From a virus, in the IMG/VR virus record IMGVR_UViG_3300009285_000433, positions 1 to 41,629 of that record: a DNA stretch of 41,629 bases; one strand, 5' to 3'. The notes beneath the pieces are model-generated. The model was given only the letters and a program-made list of their open reading frames with translations. It was not told where the DNA came from and did no database searches. Below, in pieces: positions 1,403 through 41,629 of this stretch. The position numbers were made by a program, and so were the translations under genes. The first letter of the stretch is position 1. Each line of letters opens with the position of its first letter.

Positions 1403-1440
1403 ATCACAAAATACTTGAACGGAAATAAATATAATGAAAT

Positions 1441-1494
1441 ACCTGTATAGTTATAATATGATTATACATATAATTCATTACATATTACTTGAAG
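1441..1494 (+). promoter_or_regulatory. AT-rich control element, copy A
   Basis: One of three copies of a roughly 50 bp element whose core ATTATACATATAATTCATTA is an imperfect palindrome around CA (ATTATA/TATAAT). Copies A and C share 28 identical bases. Copy A lies between the end of the 157-residue gene and promoter P1, about 55 bases upstream of the P1 -35 box. It retains a TTGAAG on the plus strand without a matching -10. Confidence 0.65.
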
Positions 1495-1958
1495 TGTTTC
1501 CAGAAGTTATGTTCATCTTTCTCTTGTTGTAGTTGACGGTTACGCCTCTCCCTAAGTCGTGTCGCTGTATCTTTCTTCTTAATGAATTCTTCCACCATCT
1601 CAGGATACTCAGCAAGAACATAATCAGGAACTTCTTCTTCATCTTTAAGAGCTTCTAACACATAATAAGCATGAGGCTCAAGGAAGACAGTGCCTTCATC
1701 CTCATCCCACCTTGCGTCACTTAAGTCAATCATCATCTCCAGGAACTCAGCATAAGTAGACTCTTCCCCAGTCTCTTCATAGTTTGCTTCGCTAACGCTT
1801 ATGAATAGTTTCTCCTTTGCTCGTGGCGAGAGTTCAGTAAATAAAGGAAAAGACTGAGCAAACTCAGCTGAGGTCATTTGGTAAGGTAACTTCTTCATTG
1901 CCCAAACAGAGAATGAGCTAGGCGTTGCTTTCATCACTGTAGTATTCCTCCTCTTCAT
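1485..1958 (-). CDS. Acidic hypothetical protein with FW-type C-terminal tail
   Basis: 157 residues, rich in Glu/Asp in the middle and with a charged helical C-terminal third. No recognised domain. Its last residues, EHNFWKHFK, match a tail shared with three other early proteins (stops at 3414, 5375 and 5706), suggesting a common docking partner. The start overlaps the upstream stop by ATGA, so it is translationally coupled to the gene ending at 1955. Last gene of the leftward operon from the 6.9 kb promoter. Confidence 0.75.
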   Translation of the reverse strand: MKRRNTTVMKATPSSFSVWAMKKLPYQMTSAEFAQSFPLFTELSPRAKEKLFISVSEANYEETGEESTYAEFLEMMIDLSDARWDEDEGTVFLEPHAYYVLEALKDEEEVPDYVLAEYPEMVEEFIKKKDTATRLRERRNRQLQQEKDEHNFWKHFK

Positions 1959-2218
1959 CTAGGGGTGGGGGTCGAGCGCTGGCATGATTTCTTTCTCATT
2001 TTCTTTTCTGCTGAAACTCTTTCAACGAGCAGACTGATACGAGTCTCACATATAACTAGCTCAGACTTTGCGGTCTTGATAACCCAGTCTCTGTCCAGTA
2101 ATAACTTATGTCTAGCGGCAAGTTCAGGCTGTCTTACGATACCTAGTAGCTTAGTTCTTCTATGGCGTAGTCGCCTTAATTCACGCGTAGTTTCACTTGA
2201 GCGTCTTCTCATCATCAC
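1955..2218 (-). CDS. Small basic coiled hypothetical protein
   Basis: 87 residues, Arg/Lys-rich and helical, opening MMMRRRSS. GAGGAGGAGAGG precedes the ATG. Its stop shares ATGA with the next gene. The amphipathic, strongly basic composition would suit nucleic-acid binding, but no family was recognised. The opposite-strand frame over the same bases lacks a ribosome site. Confidence 0.65.
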   Translation of the reverse strand: MMMRRRSSETTRELRRLRHRRTKLLGIVRQPELAARHKLLLDRDWVIKTAKSELVICETRISLLVERVSAEKKMRKKSCQRSTPTPR

Positions 2219-2232
2219 CTCTCCTCCTCATC

Positions 2233-3066
2233 CTACGTTAGGTCTCTAATTGTTGGCTCATCTTCTTCAATGACGTCTCTATCAATTACTTCTGGATTAA
2301 GATTACTCCGATGCCACTTAACCGTAAAGCCGGGGATAAAGTTCTGAGCATTACGAGTCTTGCCAAAGTCCATCTTGACTATATCATTACCAGAAAATGG
2401 ATTAGTAATTCTCAGTCTGACGATAGTGTCCAGCCAATTATTCCAGTAGCTACTGCCCATTATCTCTTCAGCACCTAAGTCAACAACTTGGCCACTAGAG
2501 TCAGTCCTTGTCAGTCTGGCGTGGTGAATGATGATGAAGGTAGTATTATACCTTCTTCTAAGACTGTTGATATTACGCTGGAACTTCTTTACGTCATACT
2601 CGTCAGATATATGTCCTGCTACATATAGCATCAGCGGATCAAGAATTACTACCAACGGCAATTGAGGGTCATGAGCACGACGCCGGACTTCCTCAATGTT
2701 CTTAGTTAATTCTGCTAACCCATGTGAAGTGTCCAGCATAACATCATCTGTTGGAGTTGTGAAGAAGACGTTGGGAGATGACATACTGTTGCCCTGCTTA
2801 TACTTCACAAACCTATCTTTGAACAAAAGCTTTGGCAACTCTACCTGATGAGATAGGATTGTTGCTGATGATGTCTTGAACCCAAACCAGTCCTTACCGC
2901 TACCAATGCTGTAGGCGAGATGTAAAGTATTCATAGTCTTCCACGTCCCAGCAGCTCCAAACAGCATCATGACAGTGCCAGGAAACAGTATCCCTTCTTC
3001 AATAATAGCGTCTGGCCTGTAGTCTGGTTGCCATTGGAGTAACTGGTTCTCGCTATCAATGGTCAA
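2233..3066 (-). CDS. RepA/RecA-like P-loop ATPase, probable replicative helicase
   Basis: 277 residues of the AAA_25/RepA-like RecA fold. The Walker A region is GAAGTWKT (37-44): Lys43 and Thr44 are kept but the usual Gly before Lys is Trp, a variant of the GxxxTxKT kind met in this family. Walker B is VVILDP (Asp143). A His-His pair follows at 181-182 after a hydrophobic strand, then FGKTRNAQ near 235. These hexameric ATPases act as phage replicative helicases or recombination ATPases. No primase was recognised in the window, so its loading partner is unclear. It follows a zinc-ribbon gene with a four-base gap. Confidence 0.85.
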   Translation of the reverse strand: MTIDSENQLLQWQPDYRPDAIIEEGILFPGTVMMLFGAAGTWKTMNTLHLAYSIGSGKDWFGFKTSSATILSHQVELPKLLFKDRFVKYKQGNSMSSPNVFFTTPTDDVMLDTSHGLAELTKNIEEVRRRAHDPQLPLVVILDPLMLYVAGHISDEYDVKKFQRNINSLRRRYNTTFIIIHHARLTRTDSSGQVVDLGAEEIMGSSYWNNWLDTIVRLRITNPFSGNDIVKMDFGKTRNAQNFIPGFTVKWHRSNLNPEVIDRDVIEEDEPTIRDLT

Positions 3067-3070
3067 AACT

Positions 3071-3403
3071 TTAATCCTTACTAATTCTTTGCTGTGTGTT
3101 TGGAAGAACGAGTTTTACAACTTCAACTGTCTTTGCTACTTCACCCAGCGAGACTAAAACAGAATACATGCAGCCACATTTACAGCAGATGTCCCACGCA
3201 GTCTTGAAGAAGGGAAGTTTTGTTCCAGCAGGCTGTATTGCTACTGACTGTGGAGGTAATGGAATGCCTTCCCGCACTTGAAAATCAAAATGTATAATGT
3301 GCTCAGGAAGCAGCTTTTTCTCCTTCAACTCCCTCACTAAGTTCTCAAAGAATCTTTCTTCTGACTGACAACAGGGACATTGACTAACTTCTTGCTTGTT
3401 CAT
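3071..3403 (-). CDS. Zinc-ribbon hypothetical protein
   Basis: About 110 residues when started at MNKQEVSQ, chosen because AGGAGG lies just upstream; the longer frame from 3430 has no ribosome site. A CPCC pair near the N-terminus and CCKCGC near residue 75 could bind one zinc. It lies directly before the helicase-like ATPase, so a replication role is possible but not shown. Confidence 0.65.
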   Translation of the reverse strand: MNKQEVSQCPCCQSEERFFENLVRELKEKKLLPEHIIHFDFQVREGIPLPPQSVAIQPAGTKLPFFKTAWDICCKCGCMYSVLVSLGEVAKTVEVVKLVLPNTQQRISKD

Positions 3404-3413
3404 CTCTTTCCTC

Positions 3414-3701
3414 CTACTTAAACTGCTCAAAGAATTCTTTTCTCTGAGACTCCTGGATTATCTTTCTCCACTTAGAGATGGTTGTAGAGTCTACTCCTAT
3501 TCTTTTTTCTACTTCATAAATTGTCCCCTCCATAATAATGTTCTCCAATTTATTTTTGAATTTCATCTCAGTCAGTCGCATCAGAGTAGACTTTGGATAG
3601 GCAGAAGGAAGTTCTTCTATAGGCACTGGTTTTCTACTCAAGCGCTTGAACTCCACGCCTCTCTGCTTAAGTATCTTCTTTCTGATGTCTGACGGTCTCA
3701 A
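3414..3701 (-). CDS. HTH DNA-binding protein with FW-type C-terminal tail
   Basis: About 95 residues from a TTG start at 3701, chosen because GGAGG lies four bases upstream; the frame is open to another TTG at 3728. Residues 60-85 (EVEKRIGVDSTTISKWRKII) form a clear helix-turn-helix of the homeodomain-like or transposase-like kind. It ends RKEFFEQFK, a version of the tail shared with the proteins stopping at 1485, 5375 and 5706. A small regulator or DNA adaptor is likely. The upstream membrane-peptide gene stops within this gene's ribosome site, implying coupling. Confidence 0.65.
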   Translation of the reverse strand: MRPSDIRKKILKQRGVEFKRLSRKPVPIEELPSAYPKSTLMRLTEMKFKNKLENIIMEGTIYEVEKRIGVDSTTISKWRKIIQESQRKEFFEQFK

Positions 3702-3702
3702 A

Positions 3703-3786
3703 CTACCTCCACGACTGAATAGTAACAAAGTATAGAGCAGCGAGCATTAACCAGAACAAGATGACTACAATAACTAGTTTATACAA
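3703..3786 (-). CDS. 27-residue membrane peptide
   Basis: A TTG-started ORF whose start overlaps the stop of the upstream Cys-rich gene (TTGTATAA). It encodes one hydrophobic helix (VIVVILFWLMLAALYFV) followed by TIQSWR. AGGA lies eight bases upstream. The stop TAG falls between GGAGG and the TTG of the next gene. The layout supports translation, but the size calls for caution. Confidence 0.4.
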   Translation of the reverse strand: MYKLVIVVILFWLMLAALYFVTIQSWR

Positions 3787-4036
3787 CTCTACGTCCTAAT
3801 GAGACTTTATGTCCGCCTAGAACTCTTCGCTCCTGCTGTTCGCCATCCTCGTAACTTGTCCACCAAGCTGGATTTGAAGCGGAGCGAAGAATATCGGTAG
3901 CGCAGTTACTAGAATACAGAGCGCAATGCCCATCTCTCATGTGCCAGCAGTTAATACAAGTTCTTCTTTTGCTGACTAAGTCCTTCGCATAGACTGGGTT
4001 GCTAAGAAAGTTTTCTGATGACTTTATAGCTTCCAC
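3779..4036 (-). CDS. Small Cys-rich, probably zinc-binding protein
   Basis: 85 residues from a GTG start with AAGGAG seven bases upstream. A cluster CINCWHMRDGHCALYSSNC (about residues 27-45) offers four Cys for zinc. The C-terminal half is charged. No recognised family. It overlaps the preceding gene by about 35 bases. Confidence 0.6.
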   Translation of the reverse strand: MEAIKSSENFLSNPVYAKDLVSKRRTCINCWHMRDGHCALYSSNCATDILRSASNPAWWTSYEDGEQQERRVLGGHKVSLGRRVV

Positions 4037-4187
4037 TTCTTCTCTCCTTTCTATTTAGACTTATAATCTTGGGCTTGCCGTCAACAGTTCCAACTATGAC
4101 TTTCCGTGTGGGACTAGGCGTGAACTTACCAAAGAGTCTACCCGCCTTTGTTGGGGTGAGCGTTCTTTCTGAGTGTAACTCTTTCAT
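4002..4187 (-). CDS. Small basic hypothetical protein
   Basis: 61 residues, Lys/Arg-rich, without a recognised domain. The ATG has a very good ribosome site (AAGGAG, eight bases upstream), which is the main reason to accept it despite overlapping the upstream gene by 50 bases and the downstream one by about 35. Confidence 0.5.
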   Translation of the reverse strand: MKELHSERTLTPTKAGRLFGKFTPSPTRKVIVGTVDGKPKIISLNRKERRSGSYKVIRKLS

Positions 4188-4326
4188 TACTTAGTCTCCT
4201 TATAAGTATCCCTGCTTCTCCCATAGTCATTGGCTGTTCTTCTAGCGGGGCGTGAACCCCACACGCCATACAGAGCAGGGCAATGGTGTGAAGCTGACGT
4301 CCAGTAGCTAAGTCAGACTTGTTCAA
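4138..4326 (-). CDS. DUF3072-like small protein
   Basis: About 62 residues from a TTG at 4326 behind AGAGG and overlapping the upstream stop; an ATG at 4362 in the same frame lacks a ribosome site. The pattern ATGRQLxxIAxLCMACG followed by PLEEQPMTMGEAGxLIRRL resembles the small DUF3072 family found in phages and bacteria. Function unknown. Confidence 0.55.
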   Translation of the reverse strand: MNKSDLATGRQLHTIALLCMACGVHAPLEEQPMTMGEAGILIRRLSNERVTLRKNAHPNKGG

Positions 4327-4702
4327 GAAGCTTAACCTCTTTAGCGACAACTGTAACGTCATCTATTGGAGCATTACCGGTAAAGTGCCAGCGTGTCCCT
4401 CCCCAAGCAACCTCTTTTCTGAAAGCTACATGGAAGACAACGCCACCAGAATACTGCTGAATTATCTTAGCGACGGCAAGAGAAAGGCTGATATGAAAGC
4501 CAGTGGGATAAGTTCCCAAAAAGTCGACCATCTTTATAGGCTCTTTCTTCTTGTCTTTTGCGTAAGCGCCAACAAAAAGTTGAACCGCGTCACTTCCGCA
4601 TAGTCCAGTAAAGTATTCCATGGGCTCATCGCCATTACAGACTACTACCTTGTAGCCTCGCCGTTTTCTACTCCTGCCTTCAAAGATTTTAGCCAAACAC
4701 AT
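4313..4702 (-). CDS. Hypothetical protein of a recurrent phage type
   Basis: 129 residues beginning MCLAKIFEG; AAGGAGG lies nine bases before the ATG. A central TYPTGFHI followed by a helix, a strand with VAFRKEVAWGG and a closing VVAKEVKLLE recall a common phage accessory family built as MCL...GFH...VAKE, whose role is not established. Embedded in the early leftward operon. Confidence 0.6.
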   Translation of the reverse strand: MCLAKIFEGRSRKRRGYKVVVCNGDEPMEYFTGLCGSDAVQLFVGAYAKDKKKEPIKMVDFLGTYPTGFHISLSLAVAKIIQQYSGGVVFHVAFRKEVAWGGTRWHFTGNAPIDDVTVVAKEVKLLEQV

Positions 4703-4716
4703 CAGTCAATCCCTCC

Positions 4717-4866
4717 TTAAATAAAGATAATAATTATTCCGCCAATGAGCCAAATGGAAACTCTGATAACAAGAAGCTCAGATATTTCTTTGTCTGTAGA
4801 AGAGAATAACACAAGACCAACGCTAGTAATAAGTATTCCAACTATTAGCTTGATTATTTCAACCAT
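4717..4866 (-). CDS. 49-residue two-helix membrane protein
   Basis: The ATG overlaps the upstream stop as TAATG. Two hydrophobic segments (IIKLIVGILITSVGLVLF and LVIRVSIWLIGGIIIIFI) flank a short polar loop STDKEISE. The stop is followed at once by the AAGGAGG of the next gene. Early expression argues against a holin and more for a host-envelope or exclusion role; that is inference. Confidence 0.6.
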   Translation of the reverse strand: MVEIIKLIVGILITSVGLVLFSSTDKEISELLVIRVSIWLIGGIIIIFI

Positions 4867-5060
4867 TACTCTCTCTCCCATTCTGTTCTTGACCTGTCTC
4901 CTTCATACGGAGCAAAGCCAGTGCCGTAACATTCTTCACACTTGACCTGAGCCTCTGTCGTAACAAAGTCTCCATGAGCCGTCGAGTAGTGGTTGTAAAT
5001 TCTGACTGTGTAGCCTTTACCTCTACACTCCTGGCACTTTTTCCTTTCATCTTGTGGCAT
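4866..5060 (-). CDS. DnaJ-type zinc-finger miniprotein
   Basis: 64 residues with two CxxCxGxG-like units, CQECRGKG and CEECYGTG, the half-sites of the DnaJ central zinc finger, with no J domain or other DnaJ part. AGGAGG precedes the ATG. Phages often carry such stand-alone fingers; their partners are unknown. An alternative frame over the same bases (4859-5050) has no comparable motif. Confidence 0.7.
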   Translation of the reverse strand: MPQDERKKCQECRGKGYTVRIYNHYSTAHGDFVTTEAQVKCEECYGTGFAPYEGDRSRTEWERE

Positions 5061-5077
5061 CTCTTTTCCTCCTCTTC

Positions 5078-5359
5078 TTAGTATTCTAAGTCTCTAATAC
5101 TTAGATACGGTGTTTGATATCCAGACTTGATTGCTTCAAGAAGTTCTTGACTTGACCATTCTGTTCCGCATCCAGAACATCTCCACTTGTCAGTCTTAAA
5201 GTCAATATCCAAGATACTGCCACAATCAGGACAAGGTAACAATCCATGAATAAGTCTGATGTGGTCTCCGTCAAGGATGAAGCTAGATAGTTCTCTTCTA
5301 CGAATAACACCAGTTATATCGTCATTAGGCAGTTCTCGTAAGCTATCATACTTACTCAT
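5078..5359 (-). CDS. Zinc-ribbon protein
   Basis: 93 residues with CPDCGS near residue 43 and CSGCGTEW near residue 61, a classic four-Cys ribbon of the kind found in DNA-binding or transcription proteins. AGAGGG lies upstream of the ATG. Neighbours include another zinc ribbon and an HNH enzyme. Confidence 0.7.
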   Translation of the reverse strand: MSKYDSLRELPNDDITGVIRRRELSSFILDGDHIRLIHGLLPCPDCGSILDIDFKTDKWRCSGCGTEWSSQELLEAIKSGYQTPYLSIRDLEY

Positions 5360-5374
5360 ACGCCCTCTACTTCT

Positions 5375-5713
5375 TTAATCTTTGAATTGTCTCCAGAAAT
5401 CTTCCTCTTCCTTGTCAATTCTTCTTGGGTCTGCTTCGGATGACTCCTCTGCTGTAAACGATACATCACAATTAAAGCAGATACTAAACTGATGTCTTAC
5501 CCACTCAGTATTTCTTCCTCCGCAATAGGGACATCTTCTGTGAACTGCCAGATGGTCTTCTCCCCAAAGTTCCCTGTCTTCTTTTCTGTGTCGTATCTCA
5601 TAGTCGCTTACCTCGCCGTCAAAAAGACCAGCATAGTAAGGGTAGTCATAATACTTGTCTCGTTCCTCGCCAGGTGGTATTAGTATAAGTTCCGCAGCAG
5701 TCAACTTAGCCAT
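5375..5713 (-). CDS. Zinc-ribbon protein with FW-type C-terminal tail
   Basis: About 112 residues from the ATG at 5713, which overlaps the HNH gene's stop; an in-frame TTG lies one codon earlier. CPYCGG (about 62) and CFNCDV (about 79) make a zinc ribbon. It ends EEDFWRQFKD, nearly identical to the tail of the neighbouring HNH protein (KRFWRQFDG), though the bodies are unrelated. A shared interaction partner is the simplest explanation. Confidence 0.75.
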   Translation of the reverse strand: MAKLTAAELILIPPGEERDKYYDYPYYAGLFDGEVSDYEIRHRKEDRELWGEDHLAVHRRCPYCGGRNTEWVRHQFSICFNCDVSFTAEESSEADPRRIDKEEEDFWRQFKD

Positions 5714-5996
5714 CAAATTGTCTCCAGAAACGTTTCTCTCCAGAATGAATGTTATCCTTCACATGAAAGCGCTTGTGGCAGACTCGGTGAGTTAATACTC
5801 TATTACTCAAGTCATTGTTAGAGTGATTGTTATCTTTGTGATGCTCCGTTAATTGGTCAGAGCCTCTAGAGGGAAGGACATCTGACTTAGTAAAAGGAGC
5901 GTGACAAAGATAGCAAGCAGGCTGGCTCTGTTGTATGAGTAGCCAGAGTAAGTCCTTTAGTCTACTCTTCTCGTAAGAAGTCTTAGTCTTCCTCAT
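5706..5996 (-). CDS. HNH endonuclease with FW-type C-terminal tail
   Basis: 96 residues. CYLC (about 28-31), EHHKDNNHSNNDLSN (about 52-66) and HRVCHKRFH (about 71-79) give the HNH fold with its structural zinc and catalytic His. Such small enzymes nick or cut DNA; in phages they support packaging, host-DNA breakdown or homing. Here it sits in the early operon, not beside terminase, so a packaging role is less likely. The last residues KRFWRQFDG match the tail of three other early proteins. Confidence 0.8.
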   Translation of the reverse strand: MRKTKTSYEKSRLKDLLWLLIQQSQPACYLCHAPFTKSDVLPSRGSDQLTEHHKDNNHSNNDLSNRVLTHRVCHKRFHVKDNIHSGEKRFWRQFDG

Positions 5997-10475: not shown

Positions 10476-10497
10476 GAGCAGTAAAATATAACAAAAC

Positions 10498-10549
10498 ATC
10501 TATATAGTTATATTATCATTATACATATAATTCATTATATTCTTTGACT
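10498..10549 (+). promoter_or_regulatory. AT-rich control element, copy B
   Basis: Second copy of the ATTATACATATAATTCATTA element, placed between the divergent promoters P4 and P5 and ending in the P5 -35 box. Ideal position for a shared operator or activator site that switches between early leftward and late rightward transcription. Confidence 0.7.
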
Positions 10550-10572
10550 GGAGCAGGTAAAGATGATATAAT
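10544..10572 (+). promoter_or_regulatory. Sigma-70-type promoter, rightward (P5)
   Basis: TTGACT (10544-10549), 17-base spacer ending TGA, TATAAT (10567-10572): extended -10. Probable start of the packaging and portal transcript. Confidence 0.85.
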
Positions 10573-10612
10573 GAATCTAGATAACTAGTAGTGTGGAGTT
10601 GTTAGGTGATGT

Positions 10613-20866: not shown

Positions 20867-20885
20867 TGAATAAATATATTTAATC

Positions 20886-20937
20886 ATCTGTATAATGATA
20901 ATATGATTATACATATAATTCATTATATATATTGAAG
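20886..20937 (+). promoter_or_regulatory. AT-rich control element, copy C
   Basis: Third copy; 28 bases (ATAATATGATTATACATATAATTCATTA) are identical with copy A. It ends in the -35 box of promoter P6 with the same six-base distance from core to -35 as copy B, so the two are arranged alike. Confidence 0.7.
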
Positions 20938-20960
20938 AGAGTCTGTAAGTAGTGTATAAT
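20932..20960 (+). promoter_or_regulatory. Sigma-70-type promoter, rightward (P6)
   Basis: TTGAAG (20932-20937), 17-base spacer, TATAAT (20955-20960). Gives the scaffold and capsid genes their own start, separate from the packaging genes, which would allow a high capsid dose. Confidence 0.8.
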
Positions 20961-20987
20961 AGATTTAGAAGATGGAGGTAAAGATAA

Positions 20988-41032: not shown

Positions 41033-41182
41033 TTTCTCTCCTTCCTTAATCTCTATAGCCAGACTCTTTGTGAATAGAGGTTGGTAGCCCGCTTTAAGCC
41101 AGCAGTTTAAGCTAAATGCGGCATTAGCACTACCATAAAGGACTAAGATTAAGACCGAATCCTGTCTTTACCTCTATCCTTC

Positions 41183-41221
41183 GCCAGACTTATCTCGTCT
41201 TTGTCTGGCTCTTGTCAGGCG
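41183..41221 (+). repeat. Direct repeat R1, copy 2
   Basis: Same unit as at 41349 with g for a in GTCTGGC and the same CAGGCG extension. In this copy GCCAGAC/GTCTGGC makes a perfect 7-base stem. Confidence 0.85.
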
Positions 41222-41348
41222 ACCCCTTTCACAAGGGTAGGATGAGACCTGATGGTGAGCAAGCCCCAGGACGAAGGAACCCACAACCCGAAGGCTGCTG
41301 CCGCCTTTACGGTGGCCTTTGCTTGACCCTGCGCTTGCCTGCTCCTTC

Positions 41349-41387
41349 GCCAGACTTATCTCGTCTTTGTCTAGCTCTTGTCAGGCG
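41349..41387 (+). repeat. Direct repeat R1, copy 3
   Basis: Third copy; with copy 2 it shares an extended unit of about 45 bases (TCCTTC before and CAGGCG after). Read on the minus strand all copies encode TRARQRRDKSG in one frame, and the single base difference is silent in that frame. Confidence 0.85.
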
Positions 41388-41574: not shown

Positions 41575-41629
41575 GCTTCGGGCAGGCTTGCTGGCTGTTC
41601 CTTACCCATTTATATCTCAGTCAACTTCC
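41575..41629 (+). repeat. 55 bp direct repeat, right copy (junction)
   Basis: Identical to 416-470. Joining the two copies places base 471 directly after the right end, closing a circle of about 41.2 kb and leaving 1-415 as an alternative branch. Confidence 0.9.

Follow-up and report, generated by a model that had tools for sequence, protein, structure and literature searches.

Four leftward genes near one end of a 41.6-kb virus record from an uncultured phage (IMG/VR record IMGVR_UViG_3300009285_000433, whose whole stretch of 41,629 nucleotides is called the window here) encode an acidic protein, an HTH protein, a zinc-ribbon protein, and an HNH endonuclease, which have different bodies and end in nearly the same short peptide. 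The question raised by this locus is whether such a common ending reflects a shared function or has another origin. In the window, the early and the replication genes are oriented leftward and the structural genes rightward, and the four tail-carrying proteins are probably early, a label that follows from gene content and order. The endings described in an earlier note (HNFWKHFK, KEFFEQFK, EDFWRQFKD, and KRFWRQFDG) were all recovered on the minus strand at the gene ends where that note had placed them (Table 1). Judging from their starts and ribosome sites, the four genes look real, including the HNH gene, which has a weak ribosome site at its start (5996) and overlaps its upstream neighbour.

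Table 1. Tail-carrying genes and associated features, in window coordinates
Feature	Positions	Strand	Length	C-terminal tail	Remarks
Acidic protein	1485..1934	-	149 aa	HNFWKHFK	ATG start at 1934 with good Shine-Dalgarno GGAGG
Acidic tail codons	1485..1508	-			AAC TTC TGG AAA CAC TTC AAG TAA; the last ones abut and partly overlap a 98-nt element
AAA_25 helicase-like ATPase	2233..3066	-			PF13481, E 1.8e-19; gene neighbour of the HTH protein
HTH protein	3414..3701	-	95 aa	KEFFEQFK	TTG start at 3701 with good Shine-Dalgarno GGAGG
Zinc-ribbon protein	5375..5713	-	112 aa	EDFWRQFKD	CPYCG...CFNC read in the sequence
Direct repeat D9, copy in zinc-ribbon gene end	5385..5408	-	24 nt
HNH endonuclease	5706..5996	-	96 aa	KRFWRQFDG	phrog_1271, E 2.7e-6
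Direct repeat D9, copy in HNH gene end	5716..5739	-	24 nt		21/24 bases equal to the other copy (88%)

The likeness of the four tails is real, and chance is an unlikely source of it. For all counts given here, genes were called by a simple script without a trained gene finder. In the 69 window proteins so called, F[WF]xxF occurs five times, and four of these occurrences are separated from the C-terminus by only one or two residues (4 tailed genes among 69 observed, 0.027 expected). When all pairs of ten-residue tails were aligned, the highest-scoring quartet genome-wide consisted of exactly these proteins, with a score of 170 that was reached in none of 2,000 whole-protein shuffles (maximum 123) and in none of 2,000 tail-only shuffles (maximum 142). 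The best triple left after removal of the HNH copy was equalled in one of 2,000 shuffles, and that left after removal of the zinc-ribbon copy in 13 of 2,000. A harsher test, in which any three-position motif may be chosen, gave a family-wise value of approximately 0.02 (9 of 500 shuffles). The concern that the motif might be equally common at ordinary phage C-termini was not borne out, as an F[WF]xxF tail was present in only 2 of 841 genes from related contigs (compared with 4 of 69 in the window; Fisher p 4e-4) and in none of the 249 called genes of T4. One of the two genes in the relatives is the HTH orthologue and the other, which encodes a non-HTH protein in contig L030, is likely a chance case; apart from it, the tail is carried in the relatives by the HTH protein only. 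Broader aromatic motifs were not enriched at the C-termini of the relatives (14 seen, 12.7 expected), and a literature search for such a tail motif found nothing.

At the DNA level, the claim that the codons differ between copies, and that no DNA repeat is involved, is only partly right. The DNA of the HTH tail is clearly distinct from that of the other copies (8-9 of 15 nt), whereas the tails of the HNH and zinc-ribbon genes share 14 of 15 core nucleotides and fall within the 24-nt direct repeat, and the zinc-ribbon and acidic tails match at 13 of 15, where both differences alter the residue (R to K and Q to H) and none is synonymous. Among the three FW copies, codons are identical wherever the residues agree, save for a single synonymous change in the last Phe. 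Because of this match of 13-14 of 15 core nucleotides, together with the 24-nt repeat, the three FW copies may derive from one recent DNA source. The DNA likeness of the acidic gene to the others stops at the tail, and only 7-14 of the 30 nt upstream of it match. The related claim that the tails are not only a ribosome site stands for three copies, whereas the tail codons of the HNH gene do double as the ribosome site of the next gene: they contain the TGGAG of the zinc-ribbon gene and overlap its start at 5713. A ribosome-site explanation for all four tails was rejected, since it fits the HNH copy only. The tail DNA pattern found no match in viral_contigs, a result that is little informative because the pattern is very narrow. 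A 98-nt AT-rich element lies between genes at three places in the window (1427-1524, 10484-10581, and 20872-20969); its first copy adjoins the acidic gene and overlaps the gene's end in part, and the second and third lead into good sigma-70-like promoters of rightward genes (TTGACT-N17-TATAAT and TTGAAG-N17-TATAAT).

The conservation of the tail is weak. The acidic protein matched nothing in Pfam or PHROG and had no homologue in viral_contigs or the phage collection; a viral_contigs match in L001 was spurious and represented an unrelated repetitive bacterial-type frame. The zinc-ribbon protein gave only weak matches to Lar and zinc-ribbon families and no homologue in the same two collections; a match in L012 was discarded as a frame antisense to a structural gene. 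Its structural model is of too low quality to be relied on (mean pLDDT 43) and gives the tail a helical shape with low confidence. The HNH protein had no homologue in viral_contigs and one weak partial match in the phage collection.

The HTH protein is the carrier for which relatives are available. By using the AAA_25 helicase as a query, 17 related viral contigs were found, and at nearly all of these loci the helicase has an HTH homologue a short distance upstream, giving 18 distinct members with the window protein (alignment A7). Both HTH similarity and gene position make the window protein a clear member of this family. FFxxF is present in 3 of the 18 members, namely the window protein and its two closest relatives, and is no family-wide feature: it is terminal in L015/G002 (KEFFAQFE) and is followed by further residues in L014/G001 (SAFFDTFQ). 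Overall identity of these two homologues to the window protein is only 44-52%. The members in L022, L030, L025, L026, and L036 lack FFxxF and end with the HTH or shortly beyond it, so that the comparison of homologues proposed in the earlier note yields retention in the two closest and absence from these five. Most other members have a different C-terminus; they carry a zinc-containing segment and finish with, for example, ELWDLVxLKKEE. MAFFT aligns this ending with FFxxF; the two endings may be related, and are too short for proof. The conserved segment NLPxCxxC...CxxGxC with an aromatic-LV-KKEE end is seen in L005, L017, L027-L029, and L031-L034, and an NCBIfam scan of two such members gave no match above the cut-off. 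In an AlphaFold2 model of the HTH protein built from A7 (five helices, mean pLDDT 84.7), FFEQF closes the helix of residues 72 to 92 and appears as a helix cap, not as a free tail. No significant match to the HTH protein emerged from the PDB, whether by fold or by sequence, and scanning genomes with alignments of the HTH protein and the helicase found no relatives. The tail is tentatively read as lineage-specific and as partly spread by short DNA duplication.

Similar tails on unrelated DNA-acting proteins have a precedent in phage T4, in which the hydrophobic, acidic C-termini of gp43, gp55, and gp33 bind the gp45 clamp and can replace one another (PMC2988020). Read directly, these end in SLDFLFG, SLDFLYEAND, and TLDFLL, respectively. 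As in the window, the extreme C-terminus is short, alike between proteins, and composed of hydrophobic and charged residues; however, the T4 motif (S/T)LDFL(F/Y/L) is acidic, whereas the window motif F(W/F)xxF is accompanied by basic residues and has no SLDFLF-like sequence. T4 also has a known clamp, whereas a Pfam scan of about 30 window proteins, which left out several small ones, revealed no clamp family; a host clamp is a possible partner. Since the sequence differs and no clamp is present among the proteins scanned, the window tails are kept out of the T4-type clamp tails, although by analogy they may work like them. Under the same scoring, the best tail pair reached 37 in the window and 21 in T4, where the small offset allowed penalises gp55. 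The T4 tails are thus less alike than those of the window, which makes the likeness in the window compatible with docking and short of proof of it. Bacterial SSB and T7 gp2.5 also use a terminal peptide of aromatic and charged residues as an interaction site; there, a single hub bears the tail and is bound through it by many partners, whereas in the window several proteins bear it.

Our leading interpretation, held tentatively and at somewhat less than even chance, is one already put forward in the earlier note, namely that the four tails are C-terminal docking peptides for one common partner. Each tail would form a short amphipathic helix, with F-W-x-x-F on one face and charged flanks, and binding to the common partner would gather several DNA-acting proteins on one replication or transcription factor. 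The HTH tail would be the oldest copy, short local duplication could have created or spread the others, and all would have been retained because they bind something; a first guess for the partner is the AAA_25 ATPase, which is usually encoded beside the HTH gene. In favor of docking are the alignment score far above shuffles, the triple that survives loss of either the HNH or the zinc-ribbon copy, the confinement of the motif to protein ends, its retention in the closest HTH relatives despite their low overall identity, and the T4 precedent. Against it stand three carriers for which no homologues were found, distant HTH homologues that lack the tail, the further residues after it in one close relative, its placement in the HTH model as the last part of a long helix, its restriction to the HTH protein in the relatives (except for L030), the lack of a clamp among the scanned proteins, and the two copies that lie inside a DNA repeat, one of which doubles as a ribosome site. 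The earlier interpretation is hence upheld in that the protein-level likeness is real and no general property of phage C-termini, and weakened by the tailless HTH homologues and by the share of the likeness that lies at the DNA level. Because three carriers are without found relatives and the HTH protein keeps the peptide in its closest relatives only, the shared docking signal is a proposal drawn from the likeness. The main rival, which appears only slightly less likely, is that the tails share no function. In that case, the HNH and zinc-ribbon copies would be a short DNA duplication kept partly for the ribosome site, the HTH copy a clade-specific helix end of its family, and the acidic copy a further DNA copy or a coincidence. 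The 88% identity of the repeat, the single synonymous change among the three FW copies, the ribosome site within the HNH tail codons, and the place of FFxxF in the HTH helix all fit this explanation, but the triple is still significant after the HNH/zinc-ribbon pair is collapsed to one, and the acidic likeness stops at the tail and coincides exactly with the end of the gene. Docking and this rival are not distinguished by the data.

Other explanations are less probable. The tail could be a self-association or folding element, packed onto its own protein or forming dimers with no common partner, which we consider improbable: it continues the last helix in the HTH model and is also helical, at low confidence, in the zinc-ribbon model, but the same FWRQF pentamer would not be expected from unrelated folds, and several HTH homologues stop before it. 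Hydrophobic C-termini can act as degrons, and a signal directing short-lived early proteins to a host protease would suit the probable early timing of the carriers; however, the ends K, KD, and DG are unlike ssrA-type tags, and the proteins of the relatives lack the tail except for the HTH one, which leaves this explanation, the alternative offered in the earlier note, unsupported and very unlikely. A similarly slight probability is given to pure chance picked out by eye, which has in its favor the 9 of 500 shuffles with an equally rare three-position motif and is nearly excluded by the alignment-based tests.

A bolder form of the docking interpretation, which we regard as unlikely, is that this lineage has its own docking code, in which an FWxxF helix on DNA-binding, zinc-ribbon, and nuclease proteins leads to one hub and has spread as a gene-end cassette of 15-24 nt. 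If the tails do dock to one partner, they would tie four proteins of unknown or unclear role to one pathway and offer a route to the hub, just as the sliding clamp was reached through the T4 tails, and they would illustrate how a binding peptide can pass between neighbouring genes as a very short piece of DNA.

Several features elsewhere in the window were also observed. A 224-aa protein adjoining the replication genes (501-1175) is kept in three related contigs and had no match in Pfam and PHROG scans; from its position alone, it is possibly a single-strand DNA-binding protein. In L007, a different HNH-like protein with EEEKDFWDSL near its N-terminus is encoded upstream of the homologue of this protein (plus strand, within 1-450). 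An exact 55-nt repeat near both record ends (416-470 and 41575-41629), surrounded by many short GC-rich repeats, may be related to the genome ends or to circularity. Finally, an Rfam DUF3800-VII RNA (61 bits) was detected on the minus strand at 41253-41343, with a 45-nt repeat on either side (41177-41221 and 41343-41387).
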